From: an uncultured Alteromonadaceae bacterium
GTDB lineage: Bacteria; Pseudomonadota; Gammaproteobacteria; Enterobacterales; Alteromonadaceae
DNA length: 64,000 nucleotides
Direction of reading: 5' to 3'
NCBI GenBank assembly: GCA_950073835.1
Contig: CATMRP010000005.1
Span: 1 to 64,000 of the forward strand
A model generated the notes under the pieces. The model did not search any database, was not told where the DNA came from, and saw only the letters and a list, made by a program, of their open reading frames with translations. Below, piece by piece: positions 27,459-49,575 of this stretch (position 1 is its first letter; each line of letters begins with the position of its first letter). Both the position numbers and the translations under genes were made by a program.

Positions 27459-27515
27459 TGCCCATGAAGTATTTGCTAATACTGGCTGAACCTGCTGGAT
27501 AAAAAAGCTCAGTCC

Positions 27516-28709
27516 ATGAATAAACAACAATGGTACAAATGGCACAGTTTTGCAGGCCTCCCGCTGGCTGTGTTTGTGTGTTTCATTATGTTTACGGGCA
27601 CCCTGGCGGTGCTGTCACACGAACTGGATTGGTTAACTAATCCGGCAATAAGGTCGACAGCTTCCGATAAGCCTTTGGATTGGTCAGCCTACTATCGGGC
27701 TGTTTTGGCACAGGCTAAGGGTGATAAGGTTTACCAGTTGTCAGCGCCATTACATCCAGGCTTTGCCGCACAAGCAATACTGCTTGATGAAGGCGGGCAG
27801 CGGTACCGCCTGTTTTTTAATCCGGAAACACTCGAATATCAGGGCAATGGCGTGTGGCTAAACTGGCAGACTGTGCTTCGTCGCCTGCACAGGCATTTGA
27901 TGTTGCCATTAAATATTGGTCTGACGATAGTCTCTGCTACCGGATTCTTATTGTGTATCTCGTTAATCTCCGGGCTTGCATTGCATAAGCATTGGTGGCG
28001 AGGGTTATGGCGTTTGCCACGGCACCACAACCCCCGGGTGTTCTGGGGTGACATGCACAGATTAACCGCACTGTGGGGTAGTTGGTTGCTGCTAATTATA
28101 GCATTGACCAGCGTGTGGTATTTTGTTGAGAAATACGGGCTCGCTGCTGACTACCCGGCTAATGCTACAGTCAGTAATTTGCCGGCAAAGCCACATACGC
28201 TCGCAGTAGAACCGGATATTTTTGCGCAGGTTATCCGCCAGTCTTCTTCTTTACGGCCAGATTTGCGCATTTCATCCATTTTTCTGCCGGTAACATCCGG
28301 CCAGCCTGTGCGAGTTGATGGTCAGAGTGATACTATTTTAGTCCGTGACCGCGCCAATAATTTGATCTTTGACCCGATAACCGGCGAATGTTTGTCGCAG
28401 CGTTTTGCAAGTGAACTGTCTGTACATGCTCGTATATCAGAAGCGGCCGACCCACTTCATTTTGGTACCTGGGGAGCTTATTGGTCTAAAACGGTATATT
28501 TTGTCTTTGGCTTCTTATTAACCAGTCTCTGTTTTACCGGCACAATTATCTATGCCCACCGGGTTTGCAAGTGGCGACGTAATGCTGTGCCCCCTCTGTC
28601 AAAGGTAGTAACGGCGGGCGTAAAGCAAATGAAGGTGGGTGCATTGGTTTCAATTTGGCTAGTTACCAGCGGCCTGATGATGACTCTTTATGTGCTTTTT
28701 ATGGGATGA
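27516..28709 (+). CDS. PepSY-associated TM helix domain protein (iron-uptake linked)
   Basis: WYKWHSFAGLPLAVFVCFIMFTGTLAVLSHELDWLTNP; 4 TM segments; downstream of siderophore receptor. Confidence 0.88.
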   Translation: MNKQQWYKWHSFAGLPLAVFVCFIMFTGTLAVLSHELDWLTNPAIRSTASDKPLDWSAYYRAVLAQAKGDKVYQLSAPLHPGFAAQAILLDEGGQRYRLFFNPETLEYQGNGVWLNWQTVLRRLHRHLMLPLNIGLTIVSATGFLLCISLISGLALHKHWWRGLWRLPRHHNPRVFWGDMHRLTALWGSWLLLIIALTSVWYFVEKYGLAADYPANATVSNLPAKPHTLAVEPDIFAQVIRQSSSLRPDLRISSIFLPVTSGQPVRVDGQSDTILVRDRANNLIFDPITGECLSQRFASELSVHARISEAADPLHFGTWGAYWSKTVYFVFGFLLTSLCFTGTIIYAHRVCKWRRNAVPPLSKVVTAGVKQMKVGALVSIWLVTSGLMMTLYVLFMG

Positions 28710-33602: not shown

Positions 33603-35840
33603 ATGTCTATGAATAAAAAGCGATTACTGTTGACCACTCTTTTCCCCATGCTGACCGTGGGAGGTGTCGCCGCGCAACAATCAGAAGAAATTGAAACGCT
33701 TGAAACCACCGTGGTTCAGGCTGCATCCGAAGAATTAAAACAAGCACCGGGTGTATCGGTTATCACGACAGAAGATATGAAACGTCGGCCGATCACAAAT
33801 GACATCGCTGAACTGGTCAGAACCATGCCAGGTGTTAACCTAACGGGTAATTCAAGTTCTGGTCAGTATGGTAACAAGCGCCAAATCGACCTGCGTGGAA
33901 TGGGGCCTGAAAACACACTGATCTTAATCGACGGCAAACCGGTTTTGTCGCGCAACTCAGTAAAAATGGGCCGTGCAGGCGAACGAGATTCTCGTGGTGA
34001 CAGTAACTGGGTGCCAGCTGAGGCCATCGAGCGCATCGAAGTTATTCGCGGCCCGGCGGCTGCTCGTTATGGTTCAGGAGCGTCCGGTGGTGTCATTAAC
34101 ATTATTACTAAAACCCCTGAAACCAGTTCAGCTACCGTTACAGTACAAACTGAAATTCCGGAAAACTCACTGGAAGGCGGCAATAAGCGCGCTATCGTAG
34201 TTCTGAGCGGCCCTCTTAGCGAACGATTCTCGCAGCGTACTGTACTGAACTATAACAAACAGGACGGTGATGAGCCTGATCTGAATCGTGATGCAACCGT
34301 AGCGGAAAGCGCAGGACGAGACGGTAGTGCCCGCGTAGCGGCTGGCCGCGAAGGGGTGGAGAATATGGATGCCCGAACCTTAATCCGCTTTGACCAAAAC
34401 GAAACTCATACCTGGGAAGCCGAGCTGGCGTATAGCCGTCAAGGCAATATCTACTCAGGTGACAATGCTTTCCAGGGCGTTGATGCGACGACCACTCAGC
34501 TATATATCGGTGAAGAAACCAACATAATGCGTCGTAAAACGGCGTCGCTAACTCACAATGGTGACTACGAATTTGGTGATTCATTCAGTTATATCCAGTG
34601 GGAAGAAACCGAAAATACCCGGTTAAGTGAGGGAGCTGCTGGTGGTGGTGATGGCGCCATTAATACCGAAACTGGCGAAATGAATACCATTATGCTTCGT
34701 AACATTACCGCTAAAAGCGAATGGAACCTGCCGCTGAAATTTGCTGGTCTGAATCAAACCATGACCCTTGGTGCTGAGTTCCGTGGTGAGCGATTAGATG
34801 ACAGTGTGAGTAATCAAACCGGTATCGCAGCGGTTGATTTAGATGAAATTGACGGCACTGTTGCCGTTGAAGACCGCCCCTCAGTGGTCACCGCCGAACT
34901 TATAGGTGTATACATTGAGGATAACATTATGGTGTCTGATGCGGTCACTGTCACGCCTGGAGTACGCTTTGATAATCACAGCGAGGCTGGAACTAATGTT
35001 TCGCCTAGTTTGAATATTGGCTACCAGGCTTCTCCAAATCTGACATTTCAGGCGGGGATAAGCCGGGCATTTAAAGCGCCGAATCTTTATCAGTTGAACG
35101 CAAACTATGTCTATACCACCCGTGGTAACGGTTGTCCGGTAGCTTACCCAAGCCAGGGCAGTGGTTGTTCCATCATTGGTAACCCCGAACTTGAACATGA
35201 AACCTCTGTCAATAAAGAGTTGGGGGTACATTATGTTGCCGAAAGCGGCATCAATGCTGGATTAACTTATTTCCACAATGATTATCGCAACAAAATTGGC
35301 ACCGGTAATCAATCACCTATGTACGTGATTGACGGTTCAAATGGCGGATATGTGCAAGTATTTCAGTGGGCTAATATTCCCAAAGCGGTTATTGAAGGTC
35401 TGGAAGCCAACTTGTTACTGCCTTTAAGCGATTCAATTGAATGGTCTACCAATGCCACGGTCATGCTTGAATCGGAAGACAAAACCACCGGTGAGCCGTT
35501 GTCAATTGTACCTGATTACACCATCAACTCTATGCTGAGCTGGCAGGTTAACGATGATCTGGAACTGGTGTTAAGCGGTCAGCATTACGGTAAAACCGTT
35601 AGTCCAACGACCAGCGTGACGTCGGGTGAAGAATTGGAAAATCCAAAAGATCGCGACCCCTATACCATCGTGAATTTTAATTCGGTTTATCAGTTTAACG
35701 ACGCACTGCAATTTACTTTCAGTGTGAAGAACTTACTGGATAAAAGCATTTTCAGGGAAGGGGTACAGGCTACTGCGGGGGCTAACACTTATAACGAGCC
35801 TGGTCGAAGCTTCTTGCTGGCTGCCAGCTACCGTTTTTAA
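33603..35840 (+). CDS. TonB-dependent receptor, FepA/PfeA-like (ferric-siderophore)
   Basis: RQIDLRGMGPENTLILIDGKPVLSRNSVKMGRAGERDSRGDSNWVPAEAIERIEVIRGPAAARYGSGASGGVINIITK; C-terminal LAASYRF. Confidence 0.95.
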   Translation: MSMNKKRLLLTTLFPMLTVGGVAAQQSEEIETLETTVVQAASEELKQAPGVSVITTEDMKRRPITNDIAELVRTMPGVNLTGNSSSGQYGNKRQIDLRGMGPENTLILIDGKPVLSRNSVKMGRAGERDSRGDSNWVPAEAIERIEVIRGPAAARYGSGASGGVINIITKTPETSSATVTVQTEIPENSLEGGNKRAIVVLSGPLSERFSQRTVLNYNKQDGDEPDLNRDATVAESAGRDGSARVAAGREGVENMDARTLIRFDQNETHTWEAELAYSRQGNIYSGDNAFQGVDATTTQLYIGEETNIMRRKTASLTHNGDYEFGDSFSYIQWEETENTRLSEGAAGGGDGAINTETGEMNTIMLRNITAKSEWNLPLKFAGLNQTMTLGAEFRGERLDDSVSNQTGIAAVDLDEIDGTVAVEDRPSVVTAELIGVYIEDNIMVSDAVTVTPGVRFDNHSEAGTNVSPSLNIGYQASPNLTFQAGISRAFKAPNLYQLNANYVYTTRGNGCPVAYPSQGSGCSIIGNPELEHETSVNKELGVHYVAESGINAGLTYFHNDYRNKIGTGNQSPMYVIDGSNGGYVQVFQWANIPKAVIEGLEANLLLPLSDSIEWSTNATVMLESEDKTTGEPLSIVPDYTINSMLSWQVNDDLELVLSGQHYGKTVSPTTSVTSGEELENPKDRDPYTIVNFNSVYQFNDALQFTFSVKNLLDKSIFREGVQATAGANTYNEPGRSFLLAASYRF

Positions 35841-35937
35841 GTAGTTGCCAATGTAACTAAGTGCATCTGTTGCAAGGGTTCGTTGCAGCGGGTGCGTTTT
35901 TGTTTATTCAGAACCTATCAATACTCGGATGTAAAGC

Positions 35938-36696
35938 ATGTTTCGGTTATACAACATTCTGTTGCTTAGTTTGCTGATAAGCCCTGTCTGGGCGCAGCAG
36001 GCGATTAATGAAGTGGATGGTCTCACTGAAAAATGGCTGGGGCTGGAGCGTCAGGAAAGACGATTACTCAATGAGTGGCAACAACAAGCGCCAACCATGC
36101 AGCAGCGGATCCAGTTGTTACAAGCAGAAAAGGCGCAGTTAGACGACATACTTGCACAAGGCAAAGCCAATCAGGGCGATGTTGAACAACAGCGTGAGGC
36201 TCTGCTGGCGTCTCAAAGTGACATGGAATCACAACAGGAAAAATTAACCCGCTCGCTGGCAACCATCACCGCACGGGTAAATAGCCTTTACAGTGCTCTG
36301 CCGGATCCGGTTCGCACTCTGTGGGATGAAGAGCAATCCCAACTCGATGATAGCACCGAAACATCAGCGAATTTACAAGTGGTGTTAGCCAAGCTTTCAG
36401 CGCTACACAGATTCAATCAGCAACTCACCGTTAATGAAACCATTATTACCGCACCAGATGAGCAGGACGTGCTGGTAAAACAGTTTTATCTGGGCGCAGG
36501 TTATGCCTGGTTCACCAACGCCAGCGGCCGCTACCAGGGAACGGGTGAAGTGATTGAGGGAGAATGGCAATGGCGCTTTGATGAGTCTTTAACAGGGGAT
36601 GAAATCGCTAAGGCCATCGCCATTTACGAGAAGCGCAAGGAACCGGGTTTTGTTGAGTTACCTGTCTCACTGTCATCAGCAACCGGAGGCCAGTAA
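35938..36696 (+). CDS. DUF3450 family protein (TonB2-system associated, coiled-coil)
   Basis: Signal peptide, coiled-coil, C-terminal GAGYAWFTNASGRYQGTGEVIEGEWQW; start of TonB2-type operon. Confidence 0.85.
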   Translation: MFRLYNILLLSLLISPVWAQQAINEVDGLTEKWLGLERQERRLLNEWQQQAPTMQQRIQLLQAEKAQLDDILAQGKANQGDVEQQREALLASQSDMESQQEKLTRSLATITARVNSLYSALPDPVRTLWDEEQSQLDDSTETSANLQVVLAKLSALHRFNQQLTVNETIITAPDEQDVLVKQFYLGAGYAWFTNASGRYQGTGEVIEGEWQWRFDESLTGDEIAKAIAIYEKRKEPGFVELPVSLSSATGGQ

Positions 36697-38018
36697 TGCG
36701 CATTCTACTGTTTATTTTACCGGTAATTTTCTGCACTGCCGTCGGTGCCGCTACACCACAGGATGTCCTGCTTAATAATATTGATCAGGCCAGGGAAAGT
36801 CTGGAAACCACCGAAAATCGCATCACTAAAGAACGCATTGCCCTGGGTGAAAAGCTCAGAAAGCTGGAGCAAGAGGTGATTGAGCTGCGCAACGAAACCG
36901 CAGTGGCTCGGCGTAAAATGGATGAACGCACTTTGAGTCTGACTCAGCTAGAGGAACGGCTAGCGAGCTGGACCGAGCAACAGGATTATCAACGCAATCT
37001 TCTCGACCGTTTTCTGCAACAAAGCGGCTACGCCTATAGCACCCTGGAAGCGAAAAGCCTGAGCGAAAAAATTGCTTTAGTGGGAGAAACGGCCACCGCA
37101 GCACAACAAACCCTGTCGCCACAATGGCAGACCCAAAAGCTGGTATTACCCGATGGCACAGTGATCCAGGCAAACACCTTAAGTGTGGGCCCGGTTACGT
37201 GGTTTATTCAACCCGAGCGTGAAATCGGCGGGCTGGCCAGTCACCAAAATGGTTTGCTGACCGCCACTTCCTTGTTTGATGGCAGCGCGTTCGAACAGCT
37301 CAATACTTTACAGCATTCACCAGCGGGCGTGTTAACTCTGGATCCAACATTAGGTCGGGCTGTTACTAAAGATAATGCCTCGGAGTCGATAATCGAACAC
37401 GTTGTGAAAGGCGGCATTTGGGTGGTGCCAATCGTGCTGTTCGCGTTTATTGCCACCGCTATCGGGTTATTCAAAATTACCCAGTTATGGCGCTTACCCA
37501 AGCAGGTTGTTATCACTTCCATGAAGCAGGTTAGCGCTCGTATCAAAGCGCATGGTGAAGCCGCCTTTAAAGGTATGCAGCAGCAATTACTGAAAATCTC
37601 ACTCACGGCGCCGACTACCAGAGAGCGGGATGACGAATTGTTTATGCAGTTACAACTCGATAAATCCAAACTGGATAAGTGGATCAACACGGTAGCGGTA
37701 ACCGCAGCAGTAGCGCCATTACTGGGCCTGTTAGGTACCGTTAGCGGTATGATCGAAACCTTCCGCATGATGACGGCTTTTGGCTCGAGCGATCCCGAAG
37801 TGATTTCCGGCGGTATAGCCAAGGCCCTGGTAACCACTGAACTTGGCCTGGTGGTGGCAATCCCGGCATTGATCCTCAACGCTATGTTGTCGCGCAAAGC
37901 GAAAGCTTATTACGACGGCCTCGAGAGCTTTGCGTTGCTGTTGAGTAACGAGCAGTCTGATGCCAGTAATGACGATAACGCACAACCTGTGTCCGCCAAA
38001 GCCGTGGGAGCGGAATGA
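36696..38018 (+). CDS. MotA/TolQ/ExbB proton channel family protein with periplasmic coiled-coil domain (TtpC-like)
   Basis: Signal peptide and long N-terminal extension; PLLGLLGTVSGMIETFRMMTAFGSSDPEVISGGIAKALVTTELGLVVAIPALI. Confidence 0.93.
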   Translation: MRILLFILPVIFCTAVGAATPQDVLLNNIDQARESLETTENRITKERIALGEKLRKLEQEVIELRNETAVARRKMDERTLSLTQLEERLASWTEQQDYQRNLLDRFLQQSGYAYSTLEAKSLSEKIALVGETATAAQQTLSPQWQTQKLVLPDGTVIQANTLSVGPVTWFIQPEREIGGLASHQNGLLTATSLFDGSAFEQLNTLQHSPAGVLTLDPTLGRAVTKDNASESIIEHVVKGGIWVVPIVLFAFIATAIGLFKITQLWRLPKQVVITSMKQVSARIKAHGEAAFKGMQQQLLKISLTAPTTRERDDELFMQLQLDKSKLDKWINTVAVTAAVAPLLGLLGTVSGMIETFRMMTAFGSSDPEVISGGIAKALVTTELGLVVAIPALILNAMLSRKAKAYYDGLESFALLLSNEQSDASNDDNAQPVSAKAVGAE

Positions 38019-38422
38019 TGCTTGAACTGGTGGTTTCAAACTGGATCTGCTGGCTGATGGTGGGGGTTGCCTGGTTTGCTTATCTGAATATCTTCACTTT
38101 ATATGTAAACCGGCACGCTCCACGGGATGAGCAAAAAGATATCGATACCAGTTTAGCCGAACAGCAAATGCTGCCGGGTATTCTGGTTAACGCTTTACCC
38201 CTGCTGGGATTATTGGGCACGATCTCCGGCTTACAGTTTAGCTTTACCAGCATGATGGCTTTTGGCGTAGACAGCCAGGCGGTTAGTGGCGGTATTGCCG
38301 ATGCATTGTTAACTACACAACTGGGTCTGGTGCTGGCAATCCCAGGCTGGCTGGCGCTGGTGTTTGTAAAAGGCGCAGTGAAAAAAGCCTGGCTTAAAGA
38401 AGGAATGCGTTATGCCCAGTAG
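38015..38422 (+). CDS. ExbB2-like MotA/TolQ/ExbB proton channel protein
   Basis: PLLGLLGTISGLQFSFTSMMAFGVDSQAVSGGIADALLTTQLGLVLAIPGW; ATGA-type overlap with preceding gene. Confidence 0.92.
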   Translation: MMLELVVSNWICWLMVGVAWFAYLNIFTLYVNRHAPRDEQKDIDTSLAEQQMLPGILVNALPLLGLLGTISGLQFSFTSMMAFGVDSQAVSGGIADALLTTQLGLVLAIPGWLALVFVKGAVKKAWLKEGMRYAQ

Positions 38423-38819
38423 ATTACAGCGTCGTTTGGAAAGCCAGAATAACCACACGATTGATATGTCACCGCTGCTGGATGTGGTGTTTATTCTGTT
38501 GATCTTCTTTATCGTGTCGACCGTGTTTGTTAAAGAAACCGGTGTGGAAGTAGAAAAACCGCAGGCGATTTCAGCCCAACAGCTCGACCAAATGGCCATA
38601 TTGTTAGCGATTACCCGTACCGGAGAAGTCGTGTATGACGGCGCGAACATCGGAGTCAGTGGCGTTCGCTCTACCGTTGAACAGCTATTGTTAAAAGATG
38701 ACCGGCCGGTGGTTGTTCAGGTCGACAAAGCGGTGCGCTCAGAGTTGCTGGTAGAGGTGATTGACGAAGCTAAGTTAGCTGGTGCTTCGGCGGTCAACAT
38801 TGCCACGCTCAAACCTTAA
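38412..38819 (+). CDS. ExbD/TolR biopolymer transport protein
   Basis: IDMSPLLDVVFILLIFFIVSTVFVKETGVEVEKP. Confidence 0.93.
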   Translation: MPSRLQRRLESQNNHTIDMSPLLDVVFILLIFFIVSTVFVKETGVEVEKPQAISAQQLDQMAILLAITRTGEVVYDGANIGVSGVRSTVEQLLLKDDRPVVVQVDKAVRSELLVEVIDEAKLAGASAVNIATLKP

Positions 38820-38841
38820 TAGTGTGACGGAGTACACAACT

Positions 38842-39462
38842 ATGCTTAATCGATTCGGCGCTTCATTTATCAGTACGTTGTTGCTGTGTGGGGCTATTGG
38901 CGTGATGTGGCTTGGCCATTATCTCAGTGCGTCAACCAGTCAGGATGTGGTGGTCCGAAAGCTGGACATTGCCATTACGCCGCCTCCGCCCCCACCGCCA
39001 CAAAGCCAGCAGGTCGAAGCTGAAACTGAACTTACCATGCAGGTAGAGGGGCAGGGCGCCCAGATGACCATGGCCGATTTGTCGGTACAGCCGGATATTC
39101 AGATGACCCGCCCTGATATGCCCAATGTGGTGGTGCAAAACAGTGAATGGGAAATGCCGGAAATCGACTGGGATGCCTATGGTCTGAGTGAACTCGATGG
39201 TAAGCCCACATTATTAACCCCGGTAAAAATTCGTTTCCCGAAAAAACTAAAGCACAAAGGCATCAAGCGCGTGGTAGTAAAGCTGGATGTGATGATAGAC
39301 GAAAAGGGCAATGTCAACTTGATTGATATTGTTGAAAACCCCTACCACGAACTCCGAAAAGAAATAGTGCGGTTTGTTAATGCCAGTAAATTTACCGCGC
39401 CATACAAGGCCAATGAAGCTGTCCGGGCCCGGTTTATCTGGCCGGTCGTTATAGAGGCGTAA
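38842..39462 (+). CDS. Energy transducer TonB (TonB2-like)
   Basis: One N-terminal TM, PPPPPPP tract, C-terminal VVKLDVMIDEKGNVNLIDIVENP; ATG at 38842 preferred over track start 38782. Confidence 0.9.
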   Translation: MLNRFGASFISTLLLCGAIGVMWLGHYLSASTSQDVVVRKLDIAITPPPPPPPQSQQVEAETELTMQVEGQGAQMTMADLSVQPDIQMTRPDMPNVVVQNSEWEMPEIDWDAYGLSELDGKPTLLTPVKIRFPKKLKHKGIKRVVVKLDVMIDEKGNVNLIDIVENPYHELRKEIVRFVNASKFTAPYKANEAVRARFIWPVVIEA

Positions 39463-39467
39463 AGAGC

Positions 39468-40853
39468 ATGAATATAATGAAAAAAGTAACCCCCCTACGT
39501 AGTCTGGTAAGTGCTTGTTGCCTCGCTGTCTCATTGTGCAGCCTGAAGGCTACTGCCGCCATCGACATAACCCTGGCCGAAACCGATTGGGACTTCGTGA
39601 TCAAAACCCAGTTTGGCGAGGGCAAGCGTGGCCGTGTGTCACGGGATGAAAGTAAATTCATTCAGACTATTCAACCGTTGCTTTCACAAGGTAAATATCA
39701 GGACGTTGCTACAGCTTTTGAACAGCTAACGATTTCCGACCCCAGCGCCAGCCTGTTGGAGCTGAAAGGGCAGGTCTTACTTAACCTCAAACGGTACGAT
39801 GAAGCCGAGCAGGCACTAAGTACAGCACTGAAAGAACTGCCGGGACTGGCGGCAGCGCACCGCAGTTTAAGCCTGGTGTATTTATTAACTGAAAAACTCG
39901 ATAAGGCCAGGGAACATCTGGTGAAAAGCGTTGAGTTGGGGGCCGCTGATGCCCAGCTGTACGGCCAGCTTGCCTATGTCAATTTGCAAACGGGTAAACC
40001 GGTGAGCGCTATCAGCGCTTATCAGAATGCTTTGATGCTGGAGCCCGAAAATGACCAATGGTACCGGGGATTACTGTTTGCACTGATAGAGAGTGAAGCG
40101 CTGGACCAGGCGCAAAAACTCCTCGACGAAATGCTGCTGGATGAGCCAGCCAATCCACAGTTGTGGTTACAACGCAGTCAGATAGCCCTCAAAAAATCCC
40201 AGCATATTAAGGCAATCAGCAGTCTCGAAAGCGCTTTAACCTTAGGGGAAGACGCGCTGACAAATCTTATTTCACTGGCCAAACTGCACATTACCGACGG
40301 CAGTGCTCGCAGAGCGACAGAAATTCTCAGCCAGAATATGGTCGCGTTTTTAACTGACGAAGGCCGTGATGGCTATCAAGCGGTAACTAGCATTGCCAGT
40401 TATCTTGCGGCCAAACAGGACTGGCAGAATCTACAACAGTTACTGCAGTCGGCGCAACAACAAACCAGGACGCTGTCCGCTGATCAACAAGCGGGTTTAA
40501 ATGTGTTTCAGGCCAAACTGGCTCTGGCACAAAATAAGCAAAAAGAGGCTACCCGTTTACTGCAGGACGTGGTTAAACAGCTTCCCAATAACGGCGAGGC
40601 GCTGATGAGCTTAGCGCAGCTCTACCGCGAAACTAAAAACACGGAGCGCGCTGCCATGTATTACCTGCGAGCTGAAGCCGTCGATGGGTATGCAGCACAG
40701 GCGATGCTGGGTCGGGCGCAATTATTCATTAATCAGCGTCAGTACAACGAGGCGCTGACCTTGCTGCGCAAAGTGTACAAAAGTAACCCGTCTCGTACGG
40801 ATCTACTCGCCAATATCCAGTCACTGGAAAACCTGCTTCGCAATACGATTTAA
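39468..40853 (+). CDS. Exported TPR-repeat protein of the TonB2-type operon
   Basis: Signal peptide and successive TPR motifs; 6 bp after tonB-like gene. Confidence 0.85.
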   Translation: MNIMKKVTPLRSLVSACCLAVSLCSLKATAAIDITLAETDWDFVIKTQFGEGKRGRVSRDESKFIQTIQPLLSQGKYQDVATAFEQLTISDPSASLLELKGQVLLNLKRYDEAEQALSTALKELPGLAAAHRSLSLVYLLTEKLDKAREHLVKSVELGAADAQLYGQLAYVNLQTGKPVSAISAYQNALMLEPENDQWYRGLLFALIESEALDQAQKLLDEMLLDEPANPQLWLQRSQIALKKSQHIKAISSLESALTLGEDALTNLISLAKLHITDGSARRATEILSQNMVAFLTDEGRDGYQAVTSIASYLAAKQDWQNLQQLLQSAQQQTRTLSADQQAGLNVFQAKLALAQNKQKEATRLLQDVVKQLPNNGEALMSLAQLYRETKNTERAAMYYLRAEAVDGYAAQAMLGRAQLFINQRQYNEALTLLRKVYKSNPSRTDLLANIQSLENLLRNTI

Positions 40854-40865
40854 GCTCAATTACAC

Positions 40866-41174
40866 GTGATCTCAAGCATGACTATTTTAACTTTATCTAC
40901 GCATCCTAAATTTCTGGTGACGCTACGAACGCTCTGTGCTGTGGTGGGCGGATATGCTGCTTCAGCCTGTCTCAGTTTGCTTTTGGCCCAATGGCTGGGG
41001 CTTACCGAACGTCCGGCCGAAGCCTTTATCAAAATGGTGTTCTTCGTTGTATTTTGTACGTTAATCATCTGGTCTTTTGCCATCAACAGCCATAGAAAAG
41101 CCTTTATTCACATGGCAGGGTTAAATGCCGTGGTATGGGCGGTTTATCTGGCAACACAAGGAGTCAGCGCATGA
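40866..41174 (+). CDS. Small membrane protein, DUF3649-like
   Basis: Three TM helices; precedes PepSY and DUF3325-like genes in a typical iron-uptake order. Confidence 0.65.
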   Translation: MISSMTILTLSTHPKFLVTLRTLCAVVGGYAASACLSLLLAQWLGLTERPAEAFIKMVFFVVFCTLIIWSFAINSHRKAFIHMAGLNAVVWAVYLATQGVSA

Positions 41175-42766
41175 CCGGTTCATTAAGACAATCCATGACA
41201 TGGCTGCATACCTGGAGCTCCATTACCGCCGGCTGGATCCTGTTTGCTATCTTCCTCACGGGAACGCTGTCGTTTTTTCGCAATGAAATAAGTTACTGGA
41301 TGCAACCTGAGTTACACCAGAGTGTGCCAAATGAGCAGTCGGTCATAGTGGCATACGACTATTTAACTGAACACGCAGCCCAGGCCAATGAGTGGCAAAT
41401 CAGTTTACCGGACGCTCGCAAAAACACCCTGGATTTATCGTGGACGACACCGGGTGAAGCCCGGGAACGACGCCGGGGACCCAGGGTGCAGTTAGATGCT
41501 TCAACCGGTGAGCCGCTTGAAGCGCGGCAAACCGAGGGCGGGAATTTTCTGTACCGTTTCCATTTTGAGCTTTACGGTATGCCCCGTGAAGTGGCCCGCT
41601 GGCTGGTGGGTATCGTTAGTATGATGATGTTTGTGGGCATTATCAGCGGTGTGATCATGCACCGTAAAATTTTTGCTGATTTCTTTATGTTCCGGCCTGG
41701 GAAAAAGCTTTTATCCTGGATTGATGGCCATGCCATCAGCGCAGTGCTGGCCTTGCCTTTCCACATTATGATTACCTTTTCCGGTCTGATCCTGCTTGGT
41801 AATACGTTAATGCCCTGGAACGGTGAAGGGCATCATGGGGGGCCGCGAGACCGCGGCGCCGGGGGAGGCGATCGCCCGGCGGCAGTGGAGGTGGCAAAAG
41901 ACTTTGACGACAACCCGCCGTTTGACAAGATGTTCAGACACTTTGAGCAGCAATGGCAGGTACCGGTTGATACCTTGAGCATAAGTAAGCCGGGTACCAA
42001 CAAAGTGACTTACACCTTAGGTGGTGGCAACCGCACTGAGCTAAGCGCCGGTCGCGGTGGTGAAACCTCCTTTACCTTCGATGGTAACGGCGAACAAATC
42101 AGCACACGGCCGGCTAACTCCGAAGAAAACACCGCGCAGGCAGTGTATAACTACTTCGATATGTTACACCAGGCGCGTTTTGCTGATACACCCACTCGCT
42201 GGCTGCTGTTCTTTGCGGGCATCCTGGGCACCATTATGGTGGGAACAGGCTCTGTATTGTGGGCGGTAAAACGTAGCAAACAGCAAATGGGTCAGTTTGG
42301 CTTTGAGCTCATCCGTGGCTTAAACGTAGGGACGATTGCCGGACTCATGACCGCCTGTGGCAGTTATTTCTGGGCTAATCGGTTGTTATCAGCAGAACTG
42401 GCCAGCCGTTCGGGCTGGGAAATAAACATTTTCTTTATTGTGTGGGCGATGGGAATTGTTGGCGGCCTTATCTGGCGCGATCGTAAAGGCTGGCTGGTGC
42501 AGTTATCACTGGCTGGTACGTTATTTACCTTATTGCCCATTCTGGACTCAATCACGTCGTCGACCTCAGTGTTCTTCGCCCTGAACAACGCTGACTGGAT
42601 GCGTCTGAGTTTTGATATCAGCTGTTTACTTATCGCTGCGGTTCTGTGGTTAAGTGTGTACTACCTTGCGGTGCAGAAAAAAGGCCGCAGAGGTCGTAAC
42701 GTGCCTGCGTCGCCTGCACCAAAACGCAAGGTAAAACCCTTAAAAACAGCCGGAGGTGAAGCATGA
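41171..42766 (+). CDS. PepSY-associated TM helix domain protein
   Basis: MTWLHTWSSITAGWILFAIFLTGTLSFFRNEISYWMQPE; ATGA overlap with previous gene; track start 41135 is upstream. Confidence 0.9.
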   Translation: MTGSLRQSMTWLHTWSSITAGWILFAIFLTGTLSFFRNEISYWMQPELHQSVPNEQSVIVAYDYLTEHAAQANEWQISLPDARKNTLDLSWTTPGEARERRRGPRVQLDASTGEPLEARQTEGGNFLYRFHFELYGMPREVARWLVGIVSMMMFVGIISGVIMHRKIFADFFMFRPGKKLLSWIDGHAISAVLALPFHIMITFSGLILLGNTLMPWNGEGHHGGPRDRGAGGGDRPAAVEVAKDFDDNPPFDKMFRHFEQQWQVPVDTLSISKPGTNKVTYTLGGGNRTELSAGRGGETSFTFDGNGEQISTRPANSEENTAQAVYNYFDMLHQARFADTPTRWLLFFAGILGTIMVGTGSVLWAVKRSKQQMGQFGFELIRGLNVGTIAGLMTACGSYFWANRLLSAELASRSGWEINIFFIVWAMGIVGGLIWRDRKGWLVQLSLAGTLFTLLPILDSITSSTSVFFALNNADWMRLSFDISCLLIAAVLWLSVYYLAVQKKGRRGRNVPASPAPKRKVKPLKTAGGEA

Positions 42767-43086
42767 TTGGGTTAGCTGTTTTTCTGTGTTTTATTGGTTT
42801 TACGTTGTTTTCAATGGCAAACAAGAAGCATTTCGACCTCGCATTTCCAGAACAATCACTCAGTACAACCGGTAAATGGGTTTTACACGTGGTGGGATGG
42901 GCCTTCCTGGTGCCCGCTCTGCTGATTTGTGTACAACTTTGGGACACTGAAATAGGTGCCACTGTGTGGGTGGGGATGTTGCAGCTGGCAAGCCTGCTGG
43001 TGTCAGCCTGTCTGACTTATCTTCCCTCTGTTTACCTTAACCTTTGTCGCTATGGACTGCTTGGTCAGTTTTGGAGCAGGCGATAA
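42763..43086 (+). CDS. DUF3325-like small membrane protein
   Basis: AVFLCFIGFTLFSMANKKHFDLAF; TM-rich; 4-bp overlap with PepSY gene. Confidence 0.7.
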   Translation: MIGLAVFLCFIGFTLFSMANKKHFDLAFPEQSLSTTGKWVLHVVGWAFLVPALLICVQLWDTEIGATVWVGMLQLASLLVSACLTYLPSVYLNLCRYGLLGQFWSRR

Positions 43087-43130: not shown

Positions 43131-45215
43131 ATGAAACTCCTACGCCATTTTTTTTCGTTGGTGTGTTTATCACTGTGCGTTAACGGCCAGCTTCAGGCCG
43201 CAAAGAACGACAAGCCTATGCTGCCGCAGGATTTGCTTATTGAACTGGGGGCTGCGGCGATCCCCGACCGTGAAACTTTTTTAACCCTCGCTCATATCGG
43301 CCAGGAGCGCGGCAGTAGCACATCCAAAGATGTGGAGCTGATTAAGTTTATTGTAAACATTCAGCCCAATCAGGCTCCGCTGGTGTATTGGATAAATACC
43401 AATAACATTAATATGCATCCTGTATTTATGCAGGAAGTGGGTATTGATGGCGGTTTTGGCCCTGGGATGGGCAAACGCGATGGTGGTCGTCGCGGTGAGC
43501 GGGGGGCTGATGCTGAACGCCCTGGACCAGATGATCGCAGGGGGAGAGGCGGTCGTGACGGCAGCAACCAGAGCCGGGGCGAGCGCGGTAGTCTTATTGT
43601 GCAGGGCCGTGGCAAAGAGATGAAAACGGTGTCTGGTTACTCGCCCGAAACCACCTCGGTGATCTTTCGCGGAGACATGTCTTATCTGGCAGATGAAACA
43701 GCGCCAAATGGTACTAAGGGCCTGTATACCTACAACTTAGATCCGCGCGCTGATGCACCATTGGTTGCAGTGGTTCAACAAGCTCTGCTGGCCACACTGC
43801 CTATTGCTCAGGGGAAGCTTGCCTACCGACTCCCAGCAAGTGACGATGAAGAGACATACCAGCAGTTTGCCCGGGCCGGGGTGGCAGTGCACAGCGATAC
43901 AGAACGCTTTATTGCACTGAATACTGGAGTGTCGATGGGTCAATTGCGTTATCTCAACGATGATAAACTGCCTTCTGCCAATGACATTGTGATCGCTAAA
44001 ACCTTGCCGAATGAATTACCCAGAGTCGCCGGGGTGATCACCGCGGTAAGACAAACGCCTTTGTCTCACGTAAACCTGCGCGCGGTGCAGGATAAAATCC
44101 CCAATGCGTATATTGCGGGCGTGCTGGAAAACAGCAGAATCACCAGTTTAATTGGTCAGTATGTGCGATATAGCGTTAATGCAGACGGCTACGAGCTGGA
44201 AGGTGTATCGTCCCAGGAGATAGAACAGTATTTACGTGCTCAGCGTCCAGCCAAATCGCCCGCGCTGAAACGTGACCTCAGCGCCCGGCAAATAAAACCA
44301 CTAAGTGATTTAACCTTTGCCGACTCTGTGAGTGTGGGGGCCAAAGCGGCGAATGTCGCAGCGCTAAAACATATAGGTTTGCCTGCTGAAACCGTGCCCG
44401 ATGGGTTTGCGGTGCCATTTTATTTTTACGATACCTTCATGCAGCACAATGGCTTTTATGCCAAGGTTGACGCTCTGCTGGCTGATAAAGCGCTTATTGC
44501 TGACAAAAGCCGGTTGGAAAAGGCGTTAAAAGCCTTACGTAAAGAGATCAAGCAGGGTGACATGCCTGCCTCCTTGATGGCGGCATTGGAGAAAACGCAT
44601 CAGAGCTTTCCTGAAGGTAGTAGTCTGCGTTGCCGTTCCAGTACCAATAATGAAGACTTAGCCCATTTTAGTGGTGCAGGGTTATATGATTCTTATACCC
44701 ATCATCCGCATGAGGGACACCTGGCTAAATCAATCAAGCAGGTTTACGCCAGCTTATGGAATTTCAGAGCTTTTGAGGCGCGTGAACGTTATGGCGTAGA
44801 CCATCAACAGGTCGCCATGGGCGTGCTGATCCATCCAAACTTTAAAGACGAGTTGGCCAATGGCGTGGCGGTTACCCAGGACGTGCGGTATGGCTCTGCG
44901 CATAACTATTATGTTAACGCCCAGCACGGTGAGGATCTGGTTACCAACCCGGATGCCTTATCCACCCCCGAAGAGCTACTGATTGCAGACAACAAAGGCG
45001 CCGGTTTTCGTCTGTTAACCCCGGCGGCAGACAAGCGCGTTGTGCTGGTCAATAAAGAACTGGATCAGTTACGTGAGTATCTGGGCCTGATTGAGCGCGA
45101 ATTCAGCCGCTTGTATCAGCCTGCTGACGATAGCCAGTTTGCCATGGAAATCGAGTTTAAGGTCACGGCCCAAAACAAGCTGGTTATCAAGCAAGCCAGA
45201 CCCTGGATTTTCTAG
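43131..45215 (+). CDS. Exported PEP/pyruvate-binding (PPDK/PEP synthase N-domain-like) protein with swivelling-His-like motif
   Basis: Signal peptide MKLLRHFFSLVCLSLCVNGQLQA; TPLSHVNLRAVQDKIPNAYIAG; VGAKAANVAALKHIGLP; SLRCRSSTNNEDLAHFSGAGLYDSYTHHPHEGHLAKSIKQVYASLWNFRAFEARERYGVDH; Arg/Gly/Asp-rich insert. Confidence 0.85.
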   Translation: MKLLRHFFSLVCLSLCVNGQLQAAKNDKPMLPQDLLIELGAAAIPDRETFLTLAHIGQERGSSTSKDVELIKFIVNIQPNQAPLVYWINTNNINMHPVFMQEVGIDGGFGPGMGKRDGGRRGERGADAERPGPDDRRGRGGRDGSNQSRGERGSLIVQGRGKEMKTVSGYSPETTSVIFRGDMSYLADETAPNGTKGLYTYNLDPRADAPLVAVVQQALLATLPIAQGKLAYRLPASDDEETYQQFARAGVAVHSDTERFIALNTGVSMGQLRYLNDDKLPSANDIVIAKTLPNELPRVAGVITAVRQTPLSHVNLRAVQDKIPNAYIAGVLENSRITSLIGQYVRYSVNADGYELEGVSSQEIEQYLRAQRPAKSPALKRDLSARQIKPLSDLTFADSVSVGAKAANVAALKHIGLPAETVPDGFAVPFYFYDTFMQHNGFYAKVDALLADKALIADKSRLEKALKALRKEIKQGDMPASLMAALEKTHQSFPEGSSLRCRSSTNNEDLAHFSGAGLYDSYTHHPHEGHLAKSIKQVYASLWNFRAFEARERYGVDHQQVAMGVLIHPNFKDELANGVAVTQDVRYGSAHNYYVNAQHGEDLVTNPDALSTPEELLIADNKGAGFRLLTPAADKRVVLVNKELDQLREYLGLIEREFSRLYQPADDSQFAMEIEFKVTAQNKLVIKQARPWIF

Positions 45216-45224
45216 CGGTACGCT

Positions 45225-45743
45225 ATGCCTATGTTTAACAAAAAGAATGCGTTTGGTGTCTTTGTGGTTGCCATCACGTTACTGGTAACGTGGCTGTTCT
45301 GGGTGTTGCAACTGAATAATGCGAATCGGCTGTATATAAGCCAAGTGTCGTTCAGCAATAACAATAAGCAGGACTGGGTAGAAGTGTATAACCCATCGCT
45401 GGCTAATGTGTCGCTCAAACATTATTACCTGTCTGATGATGCAGAGGATCCTACTCGCTATCAGGTACCTTTTGAGTTGATTGTGCCAGCCCATGGATCT
45501 GCCGTGTTGTGGGGCAAATCGGCCAGGCAGGTACCGCCGGGCAGTGCCCGTTTGAGCTTTAATCTGGGGAATGGTGAAACTGTGGTGTTGTCTGCTCCCA
45601 AGGGGGAGCAACTTAGTGAAATGACGCTGATGTCGCCGGCAGACTATAAAGGTGCTTTCACGCTGGTGCGTGATCCTGAGGATATGTCGAAGGTTGAGAT
45701 AGTCTATTCGTCATCGCCTGTGGCACTGTATGGCGGGTACTAA
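45225..45743 (+). CDS. Lamin-tail-domain-like protein with N-terminal TM anchor
   Basis: ISQVSFSNNNKQDWVEVYNPSLANVSLKHYYLSDD...LSFNLGNGETVVLSAPKG resembles the LTD beta-sandwich pattern. Confidence 0.65.
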   Translation: MPMFNKKNAFGVFVVAITLLVTWLFWVLQLNNANRLYISQVSFSNNNKQDWVEVYNPSLANVSLKHYYLSDDAEDPTRYQVPFELIVPAHGSAVLWGKSARQVPPGSARLSFNLGNGETVVLSAPKGEQLSEMTLMSPADYKGAFTLVRDPEDMSKVEIVYSSSPVALYGGY

Positions 45744-46455
45744 TGTGACAACACCGTTAAATGTAAAGCGCCACGAAATAAAGTTTTACATCAGCTACGC
45801 TGACTATGAACATACCCGCCATGTACTCAGCCATATGATGGAGACCGATCCTCATCAGGCTGACCCGCGGGGGTATTTTATACGCAGCCTATACTTTGAT
45901 GATGTGTATGACTCCAGTGTTGAGGAAAAGCTCGACGGCATTGAAAAGCGCGATAAATACCGTATTCGCATTTACGATACGGCGCAACAATGGGCAAAGC
46001 TGGAGCGCAAACGCAAGCATAATCAGTATGTAGACAAATCGTCGGTCACTATTTCCCGGTCGGAAGCAGAGTGCCTGATAAACGGAAACGCTGATTTTTT
46101 ATTAACCAAAAACAATGCCGCTGCCCGCTCGATTTATTTTGATTTTGCCCGTAAATACTTCAGGCCAACGGTGGTAGTGGATTATGACCGCGAGGTATTT
46201 ATTCTCGACTACAACGAGATCCGCGTGACCTTTGATAAACAATTACGGGTATCTACCTCCGATTTTGATTTATTTTCCCCAAACCTGGTAACCCAACCCT
46301 TACAACGTGCTGACACCATCATTATGGAAGTGAAATTTAATGTGTGTTTACCACCCTGGTTTGCCACCCTGTTAAACCTAAACGGAACCACGGCACAAGC
46401 GATCAGCAAGTACTGTCAGGGCCGCATGCACCTTAGAGAGTTTTATTTAGATTAA
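45730..46455 (+). CDS. VTC-domain (polyphosphate polymerase-like) protein
   Basis: NVKRHEIKFYISYADYEHTRHVL, YFIRSLYFDDVYDSSVEEKLDGIEKRDKYRIRIYD, KLERKRKHNQYVDKSS, VVVDYDRE, IIMEVKFN: VTC/CYTH-type tunnel motifs. Confidence 0.88.
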   Translation: MAGTNVTTPLNVKRHEIKFYISYADYEHTRHVLSHMMETDPHQADPRGYFIRSLYFDDVYDSSVEEKLDGIEKRDKYRIRIYDTAQQWAKLERKRKHNQYVDKSSVTISRSEAECLINGNADFLLTKNNAAARSIYFDFARKYFRPTVVVDYDREVFILDYNEIRVTFDKQLRVSTSDFDLFSPNLVTQPLQRADTIIMEVKFNVCLPPWFATLLNLNGTTAQAISKYCQGRMHLREFYLD

Positions 46456-46457
46456 CC

Positions 46458-47141
46458 ATGAACGATTTACCACAAATTATTGAATCTACTGCCGCTTTTT
46501 CATCTACCGCAATGAGCTCACTACAAATTTTACTGTCGTTGAGCGTGACATTTTTGATGGCGATGTTTATCTACTTTGTTTACAAGCGCACCTATAACGG
46601 CGTGCTTTATTCGCAAAACTTTAATATCACCCTGGTAATGACAGCGATTGCGATCAATTCCATTGTTATTGGCATCAGTGGCAACCTCATGCTGTCACTC
46701 GGTATGGTTGGTGCGCTATCGATCATCCGTTTTCGTACCGCCATTAAGGACCCCCGTGATACGGCCTTTATTTTCTGGTCGATTATGGTGGGTATTGCCA
46801 ATGGCGTGGCGTTTTACCAACTATCGTTAATTGCCAGTGTTTTTATTGCCGTAGTGTTGTGGGGGCTATCCAGAAAGGTGAGCTTTGAGCCTGCCTACAT
46901 GCTTATTATTAAGTACCAGGATGGCGATGCGTGGCAATCGGTAAAGACCCTATTGCAGGACAAGCAATGGGTGAGTAGTCACATCGTGCGCTCGGATACC
47001 TATAAATCCGACACGATTGAAAAAGTGACCGAAGTAAAGATCAAGCCAGGCAAACAGGATGAATTGCTGGCCAGGATCCGCACCTGCGAAGGTATTCAAA
47101 GCAGCATTTTACTGTCGAGCAACGGAGAGTTTTCAGAATGA
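46458..47141 (+). CDS. DUF4956 family membrane protein
   Basis: LSLGMVGALSIIRFRTAIKDPRDTAFIFWSIMVGIANGV, the characteristic DUF4956 segment. Confidence 0.88.
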   Translation: MNDLPQIIESTAAFSSTAMSSLQILLSLSVTFLMAMFIYFVYKRTYNGVLYSQNFNITLVMTAIAINSIVIGISGNLMLSLGMVGALSIIRFRTAIKDPRDTAFIFWSIMVGIANGVAFYQLSLIASVFIAVVLWGLSRKVSFEPAYMLIIKYQDGDAWQSVKTLLQDKQWVSSHIVRSDTYKSDTIEKVTEVKIKPGKQDELLARIRTCEGIQSSILLSSNGEFSE

Positions 47142-48556
47142 GACAGCAATTAAAGAAACCCTTGTTGGTGAGTTTGTTAGGAGGCGTAGCATGTTTTGCT
47201 GCGTCAGCTTTGGCAGCTCAGTCCGTACAAATCATTGATTTTAGTAAGCCAGATAATCAGCAAAAGATAACGCTCAAGCAGGGCGGTACCTATCGCCTGA
47301 CTGGCGAGAGTACACAAGGTCAGTTGTGGATAGAGGCCGGGGAAGAAAAGATTACCCTGATTCTGGATAATCTGACACTGTCTAACACCATGGGATCAGC
47401 CATTTTTATTGCATCATCCGGTGATGCTAATGTGATCCTGGCCAACGGCAGCCAGAACTTTTTAGCGGATCATCCGCGCCAGTCCGGCAGTATCGGTGGC
47501 GAACAAAATGCGCCGCTCTATGCAAAATCAGATCTAAAAATTGAAGGCCAGGCGAATGCAACACTTACCGTAAACGGGCGTTATAAAGACGGTATTGTCA
47601 GTAAAGATGATCTGGATATTCGAGGCGGTACTATTATTGTTGAAGCCGTTGATGATGCGCTTTACGGCAAAGACAGCGTGGATATTCGTAACGCCGCAGT
47701 GAATATTGTGGCGGGTGATGATGGTATTAAAGCTGACAATGTCAAACGAACCGATAAGGGCTTTGTGTATATTGAAAACAGTCAGGTAACACTGCATGTT
47801 CAGGATGACGCTATAAAAGGTGCGCTAGCAGTGGATTTGCTAACCAGCAACATCAATATTGAGCATTCCAAAGAAGGCATAGAAAGTAACAGCATCACAA
47901 TTTATAGCGGTGATGTGTCGGTGGTTTCCCTTGATGACGCCCTGAATATCGTTAAAGGTGATTTTAGTTCTGCCCGCTTGCTAGACGGTCTGTCTGAAGC
48001 CCTTAGCAGCGAAAATGAAACCTCACGAAAAAGAACGCCAGGCACACTGACTGTGCTGGGAGGCAATATCCACATTCGTTCCGGCGGCGATGGTTTTGAC
48101 TCAAACGGTGCGGCGCGCATGTCGGGCGGCCGGTTATTTATCGAGGGGCCAAATTCACGCGGCGACGGCTACATTGATGTTGATGAAGGATTTACCTTAA
48201 CCGGCGGTGAATTGCTGGCTATAGGTAACAGTAGTATGGCGCAAACCCCATCTGATACGACTCAGCCTATTCTTCAGGTGAATACTGAAGAAACGGTAGC
48301 TGCGGGCACGGTATTGACCATTGTCGAGGCAAACGGAAAATCAGTACTAGCGCTAACGCTACCAAAAGCGATAACGTCATTGACGTTTTCGGCCCCGGCA
48401 CTAACTCTTGGCAATACCTATCAGATTATGGCGGGAGATGTCATGTTAGGCGAGGTTGCCTTAACGGAAATGATCACTGTTATTGGTGAACGCGGACGTG
48501 GTGGAAGAGGTAAAGGCAAAGGCCGGGATAAGAATAAATCCTGGTGGGAGTGGTAA
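47138..48556 (+). CDS. Exported carbohydrate-binding-domain (DUF4353-like) beta-helix protein
   Basis: Signal peptide; DNLTLSNTMGSAIFI..., KSDLKIEGQANATLTVNGRYKDGIVSKDDLDIRGGTIIVEAVDDALYGKDSVDIRN repeats; basic Gly-rich C-terminus. Confidence 0.85.
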   Translation: MRQQLKKPLLVSLLGGVACFAASALAAQSVQIIDFSKPDNQQKITLKQGGTYRLTGESTQGQLWIEAGEEKITLILDNLTLSNTMGSAIFIASSGDANVILANGSQNFLADHPRQSGSIGGEQNAPLYAKSDLKIEGQANATLTVNGRYKDGIVSKDDLDIRGGTIIVEAVDDALYGKDSVDIRNAAVNIVAGDDGIKADNVKRTDKGFVYIENSQVTLHVQDDAIKGALAVDLLTSNINIEHSKEGIESNSITIYSGDVSVVSLDDALNIVKGDFSSARLLDGLSEALSSENETSRKRTPGTLTVLGGNIHIRSGGDGFDSNGAARMSGGRLFIEGPNSRGDGYIDVDEGFTLTGGELLAIGNSSMAQTPSDTTQPILQVNTEETVAAGTVLTIVEANGKSVLALTLPKAITSLTFSAPALTLGNTYQIMAGDVMLGEVALTEMITVIGERGRGGRGKGKGRDKNKSWWEW

Positions 48557-48588
48557 ATGAAAAGGCAGAGTGACACCGGAGAGGATCA

Positions 48589-49575
48589 GTGATGAAATCT
48601 GAGAACGTAAAATTTTGGTTGGTTTGTGGGGCGTTACTAAGCATGCTTCTAACCGCTTGCTCTGATAACGCTCCTGATGCGGGAGCGCGGCAATGGGATG
48701 ATTCCTGGGGCGGCGTGGATAAAAGCTATGATGAACAGTTATATACGATGCGTGAAGCGGTAATACCTTCGTTTGAAACACTGCAATTTCACGATGCCGA
48801 AATGGGCAGGGTGATGCAGTACAATTTGTATAAACCTGCCAATTATGACCCTCAAAAATCATACCCGTTAGTGCTGTTTATGGCCGATGCCTCTACCACC
48901 GGCAAAGGGGTAAAATCGCCATTGATGCAGGGCTATGGCGGCATTATCTGGGCAACACAAGCCTTCCAGCGTGACCACCCAAGCTTTGTGTTGGTCCCTG
49001 CCTTTGACGGGCCTGACAGAGCGACCAACGATAACGGGGAAGTGAGTGATGAAGTGGGTGTGGCGCGCCGCTTACTACTGTCGGTTATTTCACAATACGC
49101 CATCGATACTCAGCGTTTATACACTACCGGGCAGTCCATGGGGGGCATGATTTCTTTTTATTTTAATGCCACCTATCCGGATTTGTTCGCGGCGTCTTTG
49201 TATGTTGGCAGTCAGTGGGACGTTAGTGTGCTTGACCCTTTATTAGGGCAGTCTTTTATGTACATCGTGTCGGCGGCTGATCCTAAAGCCTCTAAAGGGA
49301 TGGACGAACTGGCCGAACTGTTTCAGGCCAATAATACGGACTTTGGTGAAACGATCTTTTCGGCCAGATTGCCTGTTGCGGAACAAAACGCTGCGGTGGA
49401 TTCGTTACTGGCAGCAGGACATTCGGCTAATTTTATTCGGTTTACCCCTGGTACTGTAATACCTGAGGGGAGCAGCGGAGGACGTGGTGGAGAACATATG
49501 TACTCTTTTGACTATGCTTACCAGTTGAGTGCGGCAAGAAGCTGGCTGTTCAGCCAGACTAAGGCTGAGCAATAA
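48589..49575 (+). CDS. Alpha/beta-hydrolase (esterase/PHB-depolymerase-like) lipoprotein
   Basis: Lipobox SMLLTACSD; TTGQSMGGMISFYF (nucleophile elbow). Confidence 0.85.
   Translation: MMKSENVKFWLVCGALLSMLLTACSDNAPDAGARQWDDSWGGVDKSYDEQLYTMREAVIPSFETLQFHDAEMGRVMQYNLYKPANYDPQKSYPLVLFMADASTTGKGVKSPLMQGYGGIIWATQAFQRDHPSFVLVPAFDGPDRATNDNGEVSDEVGVARRLLLSVISQYAIDTQRLYTTGQSMGGMISFYFNATYPDLFAASLYVGSQWDVSVLDPLLGQSFMYIVSAADPKASKGMDELAELFQANNTDFGETIFSARLPVAEQNAAVDSLLAAGHSANFIRFTPGTVIPEGSSGGRGGEHMYSFDYAYQLSAARSWLFSQTKAEQ

Follow-up and report, generated by a model that had tools for sequence, protein, structure and literature searches.

Background

Streptococcal and clostridial Pel loci carry genes for CotH, a polyphosphate (polyP) polymerase and DUF4956 (PMC7112168), and VTC and CotH genes are also found in NELoc-2 of C. 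perfringens (PMC2879425). The module of S. intermedius is SIR_1592-1594. Strains of this species lacking either the CotH gene or the DUF4956-type gene had changed Pel levels, and their aggregation in sputum medium fell by more than half; a mutant without VTC continued to aggregate and to produce Pel (PMC12345266). In Bacteroides, BT3498, which is a DUF4956 gene, appears in a list of iron-responsive genes that gives no mechanism (PMC10434189). The general CotH-VTC-DUF4956 system is already known, and the new element described here is an exported GWD-like dikinase in the place of CotH.

In plant alpha-glucan water dikinase (GWD), an enzyme that phosphorylates starch, the phosphohistidine domain stands before the ATP-grasp domain. 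The essential histidine of GWD has been described (PMC12892837). Rifampin phosphotransferase is a dikinase whose His domain swivels, and in this enzyme, PEP synthase and PPDK the ATP-grasp domain comes first (PMC4844700).

Here we describe a six-gene cassette from the genome of an uncultured Alteromonadaceae bacterium (assembly GCA_950073835.1). The cassette lies in a stretch of 64,000 nucleotides (contig CATMRP010000005.1, positions 1 to 64,000), which is the window analysed. Our main reading, which is tentative and falls a little short of an even chance, is that the cassette represents a variant of the CotH-VTC-DUF4956 envelope system, in which a GWD-like dikinase replaces CotH and modifies an envelope polymer.

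Organisation of the locus

The region 43131-49575 contains six closely spaced ORFs on the plus strand, separated by 9, -14, 2, -4 and 32 bp from the first gene to the last. An earlier note made from the sequence alone had described six tightly packed genes and named their domains; both points are borne out by the ORF list and by Pfam. The six assignments (PPDK_N, LTD, VTC, DUF4956, Cthe_2159 and Esterase) are far from chance, with E from 7.2e-58 for Cthe_2159 to 3e-6 for Esterase. Topology assignments rest on inspecting the sequences and on a hydropathy scan.

The first gene (43131..45215) encodes an exported GWD-like dikinase of 694 aa (PPDK_N, 1.2e-35) with a signal-peptide-like N-terminus. 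The second (45225..45743) encodes a lamin-tail-domain (LTD) protein of 172 aa (PF00932, 2.1e-12), anchored by a single N-terminal TM segment at residues 10-28, and its ORF overlaps the VTC ORF by 14 bp. The VTC-domain polyP polymerase homologue (45730..46455, 241 aa; PF09359, 1.3e-38) is soluble and cytoplasmic. Adjacent to it, after a 2 bp gap, lies the gene for the DUF4956 membrane protein (46458..47141, 227 aa; PF16316, 2.5e-15), which has a soluble C-terminal domain and is predicted to have about three TM segments; a profile of this protein found no match in the PDB. The fifth gene (47138..48556) encodes an exported Cthe_2159-type carbohydrate-binding protein of 472 aa (PF14262, 7.2e-58), again with a signal-peptide-like N-terminus. 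The last (48589..49575) encodes an alpha/beta-hydrolase (esterase) lipoprotein of 328 aa (PF00756, 3e-6) with the lipobox LLTAC. It matches a PHB-depolymerase-type NCBIfam at 3.6e-12, which is below the cut-off of that family.

The cassette shares with the Gram-positive Pel-locus module the neighbouring VTC and DUF4956 genes and an exported kinase-type protein in the gene set. It differs in having the exported GWD-like dikinase and no CotH, and in encoding the LTD, Cthe_2159 and esterase proteins in separate genes. The neighbouring genes examined included no pel genes.

Structural features of the dikinase

The dikinase consists of a signal peptide, an N-terminal region (residues ~30-255), a phosphohistidine domain (~257-385) with His313, and an ATP-grasp nucleotide-binding domain (NBD, ~390-691), where PPDK_N matches residues 401-691 at the C-terminal end. 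The N-terminal region matched no Pfam family and would be a candidate site of acceptor binding. The motif QTPLSHVNL lies upstream of PPDK_N. Across 45 dikinase sequences there is no variation at its Gln308, Thr309, Leu311, His313 and Asn315, nor at Lys405, Arg502, Glu675, Gln688 and Arg690 of the ATP-grasp domain.

An AF2 model of the whole protein (pLDDT 80, pTM 0.76) matches rifampin phosphotransferase and PEP synthase in a fold search. The four best fold matches of the isolated phosphohistidine domain (pLDDT 90) are all rifampin phosphotransferase (E 2.3e-5 to 6e-4); by sequence, the profile of this domain gave only a chance match in the PDB. The Pfam family GWD1_pHisD was matched by 31 of the 45 members (best E 6.9e-5), with scores below the Pfam cut-off in every individually listed member (14.7 bits for this dikinase against a curated 27). 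No other family was matched by more than one member.

The protein resembles plant GWD and PWD in the phosphohistidine domain upstream of a C-terminal PPDK_N NBD, the conserved His and the sub-threshold GWD1_pHisD match. It differs from them in being bacterial, exported and 694 aa long, and in having no recognised starch-binding domain. In rifampin phosphotransferase and PEP synthase the NBD is first (PMC4844700), whereas here it is last; this dikinase is also exported, and no PEP/pyruvate- or rifampin-binding domain is recognised in it. The first gene had been called an exported PEP/pyruvate-binding protein. Export stands, but the recognised domains are limited to the NBD and the phosphohistidine domain upstream, and no PEP/pyruvate-binding barrel is recognised. 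We reject an identity as PEP synthase or PPDK on the domain order.

VTC loci and dikinase relatives in other genomes

VTC genes are rare: 274 genomes of the class yielded 8 that carry one, and 400 genomes of the family yielded 20. In the stretches read at 27 other VTC loci, DUF4956 is present at 26 and CotH at 21, so the earlier claim that VTC and DUF4956 often sit beside CotH is upheld (see also PMC7112168). The CotH proteins at these loci look exported, as lipoproteins or TM-anchored proteins, and carry LTD at several of them; the fusion is confirmed by Pfam in L158 and L160, and L048 has a separate LTD gene beside DUF4956. A Cthe_2159 homologue adjoins VTC-DUF4956 in L052 (E 3.7e-48). CotH is not always nearby: it is missing from the stretch read at six of the 27 loci, four of which (L156, L161, L163, L169) have CotH elsewhere in the same genome, and it is absent from the whole assembly that carries the cassette (95.6% complete).

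The order CotH(LTD)-VTC-DUF4956-Porin_O_P is found in the Alteromonadaceae loci L157, L160, L162, L164, L165, L167, L168 and L170. These share with the cassette the family, the VTC-DUF4956 core and an exported LTD domain. They differ in that their kinase is CotH fused to LTD, in the phosphate-selective-type porin that follows, and in a longer (~290-330 aa), divergent VTC protein. More widely, most Alteromonadaceae VTC loci (L156, L157, L160-L165, L167-L170) and L052 have a Porin_O_P-like gene after DUF4956, confirmed by Pfam in L160 and L052 and by similar sequence in the others. This position suggests traffic of phosphate or polyP across the outer membrane.

When 85,462 species genomes were scanned with a dikinase pattern, 66 loci were found, mainly in Verrucomicrobiota and Planctomycetota MAGs, with some in Proteobacteria, Bacteroidota and others. 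No VTC, DUF4956, CotH or Cthe_2159 gene lies near any of them (multi-sequence profiles at E 0.1; flanks up to 10 kb, some short), and no dikinase occurs at the 27 other VTC loci. The six-gene set is therefore not conserved elsewhere within the reach of these searches. In one of the 66 loci (L126) a dikinase gene and an LTD gene stand side by side, a few bases apart. We read the dikinase family as extracellular because of the signal peptide and the T9SS sorting tails on two relatives. An order-wide search added one further relative (G961, probably the same contig as L129), and a plasmid search gave no match.

Other associations of the dikinase were also observed. A histidine-phosphatase-type gene adjoins it in five loci from several phyla (L075, L081, L129, L130, L131; His_Phos_1 confirmed by Pfam in three), possibly forming a phosphorylation-dephosphorylation pair. 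Longer exported cousins of 970-1040 aa with the same domain order occur in many Gammaproteobacteria (L059-L066), and are often followed by an exported protein of ~420 aa, with a Beta-lactamase2 domain in L060.

The earlier suggestion that a dikinase takes the place of CotH fits a genome that lacks CotH, a dikinase with intact catalytic residues, and the usual position of CotH beside VTC and DUF4956; no recurrence of the swap was found, and we regard the earlier interpretation as supported in part. The likeliest alternative, which we consider unlikely though not negligible, is chance co-location: a standalone exported dikinase, together with its LTD partner, would have come to lie beside a VTC-DUF4956-Cthe_2159 unit in a horizontally acquired cassette, with halves that do not cooperate. 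Dikinase homologues elsewhere have no VTC neighbours, the gene combination is unique to this locus, and the cassette DNA is present in one of 60 genus genomes, its own, and was not found in the 59 congeners. However, the genes are tightly spaced, with the LTD/VTC overlap, LTD is a recurrent partner of CotH at VTC loci, and CotH is lacking throughout the genome. A 37-bp DNA match in one congener (G682) is not VTC and is unrelated.

Origin of the cassette and the upstream operon

Directly upstream, on the same strand, lies a complete siderophore-type operon (33603-43086, plus strand) of a TonB receptor, DUF3450, TtpC-like, ExbB, ExbD, TonB, TPR, small membrane protein, PepSY and DUF3325 genes. 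The same operon is conserved in five congeners, where it ends at DUF3325 and other genes follow. Since this is the only one of the 60 genus genomes in which the cassette is found, it was most likely added behind this conserved operon. Further upstream in the window (25341-28709) are the genes for another TonB-dependent receptor and, after it, a PepSY-type membrane protein.

DUF3325 and the cassette are 44 bp apart, and the cassette may be read through from the operon. This gap holds no terminator-like match; the scans for promoters and terminators gave no more than chance would. This arrangement, together with the weak similarity of the last gene to enterochelin esterase (E 0.009), would suit an iron-uptake accessory, in which the cassette extends the TonB operon, the esterase cleaves siderophore and polyP or phosphate chemistry helps to handle iron. 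We regard this as improbable: the operon ends at DUF3325 in the five congeners, no TonB system was seen beside other VTC loci among the neighbours listed (a non-systematic annotation), and the esterase is closer to PHB-depolymerase-type enzymes.

The VTC protein

A VTC profile matches yeast Vtc4 in the PDB (3g3q, E 1.6e-24); a single-sequence search gave chance matches only. In the profile alignment to 3g3q the basic tunnel residues and the catalytic Lys of Vtc4 are present, and 15 bacterial VTC proteins all share R14, K18, R78, R80, E92, K94, R154, R165, E200, K202 and K227. The tunnel-domain residues are thus shared with yeast Vtc4. Unlike Vtc4, this protein lacks both an SPX domain and a TM part, and DUF4956 is the sole membrane partner in sight.

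At four positions that are basic in Vtc4, tripolyphosphatases have glutamates (PMC4641920). Two of these correspond, in our own alignment, to R14 and K202, both basic and invariant, which argues that the VTC protein is likelier a polymerase than a phosphatase. That it is a triphosphatase or polyphosphatase, in a cluster that recovers phosphate rather than builds polyP, is the most doubtful alternative: the TTM superfamily to which it belongs also contains phosphatases, and E16 retains half of the ExExK acidic pair, but the solved relatives found by profile search are Vtc proteins only, with Vtc4 first, and the two basic positions point the other way.

VTC is not alone as a polyP maker in this genome, which also encodes PPK1 (contig C129, L182; 55% identity with E. 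coli, truncated where the contig ends).

Proposed mechanism

In the main reading, VTC would polymerise polyP from ATP in the cytosol, as its homology and residues suggest. DUF4956 would partner VTC in the membrane, where it may serve as a conduit or an anchor for the polyP chain. On the outer side the exported dikinase, instead of CotH, would carry phosphate on His313 and transfer this phosphate to hydroxyl groups of a polymer in the envelope, most probably a glycan. The LTD and Cthe_2159 proteins may anchor or bind the polymer, and the lipoprotein esterase may edit it. The phosphate source outside could be exported polyP or, equally speculatively, a nucleotide. We infer both the functional replacement of CotH by the dikinase and the synthesis and export of polyP by the cassette.

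The main reading is favoured by the domain order, invariant residues and H-domain fold of the dikinase, by the Vtc4 match, by the recurrent linkage of VTC and DUF4956 with CotH and LTD, by Cthe_2159 at L052, and by the effects of the CotH and DUF4956-type deletions in S. intermedius (PMC12345266). Several points weigh against it. A dikinase beside VTC has been seen once, PPK1 is also present, and the GWD1_pHisD scores lie below the cut-off. Extracytoplasmic ATP is expected to be scarce, yet the NBD of the dikinase is intact. By analogy, the aggregation and Pel production of the S. intermedius VTC mutant (PMC12345266) also tell against it. A more specific proposal, which we hold to be rather unlikely, is that polyP would be synthesised by VTC, leave through DUF4956 and act as the phosphoryl donor for the exported kinases, CotH or the GWD-like dikinase, and that the latter would be a bacterial extracellular glycan dikinase.

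Conclusions

The relatives of the first gene suggest that bacteria have a widespread family of exported GWD-like dikinases, to all appearances uncharacterised, mostly from Verrucomicrobiota and Planctomycetota MAGs. An unrelated phosphotransferase with an assayable phospho-His in the place of CotH would support an extracytoplasmic phosphotransferase as what the module needs. Such a locus would make it testable how exported kinases beside polyP-polymerase genes, including CotH outside spores, obtain their phosphate. If true, a polyP donor would let bacteria phosphorylate polymers on their surface with no need of extracellular ATP.
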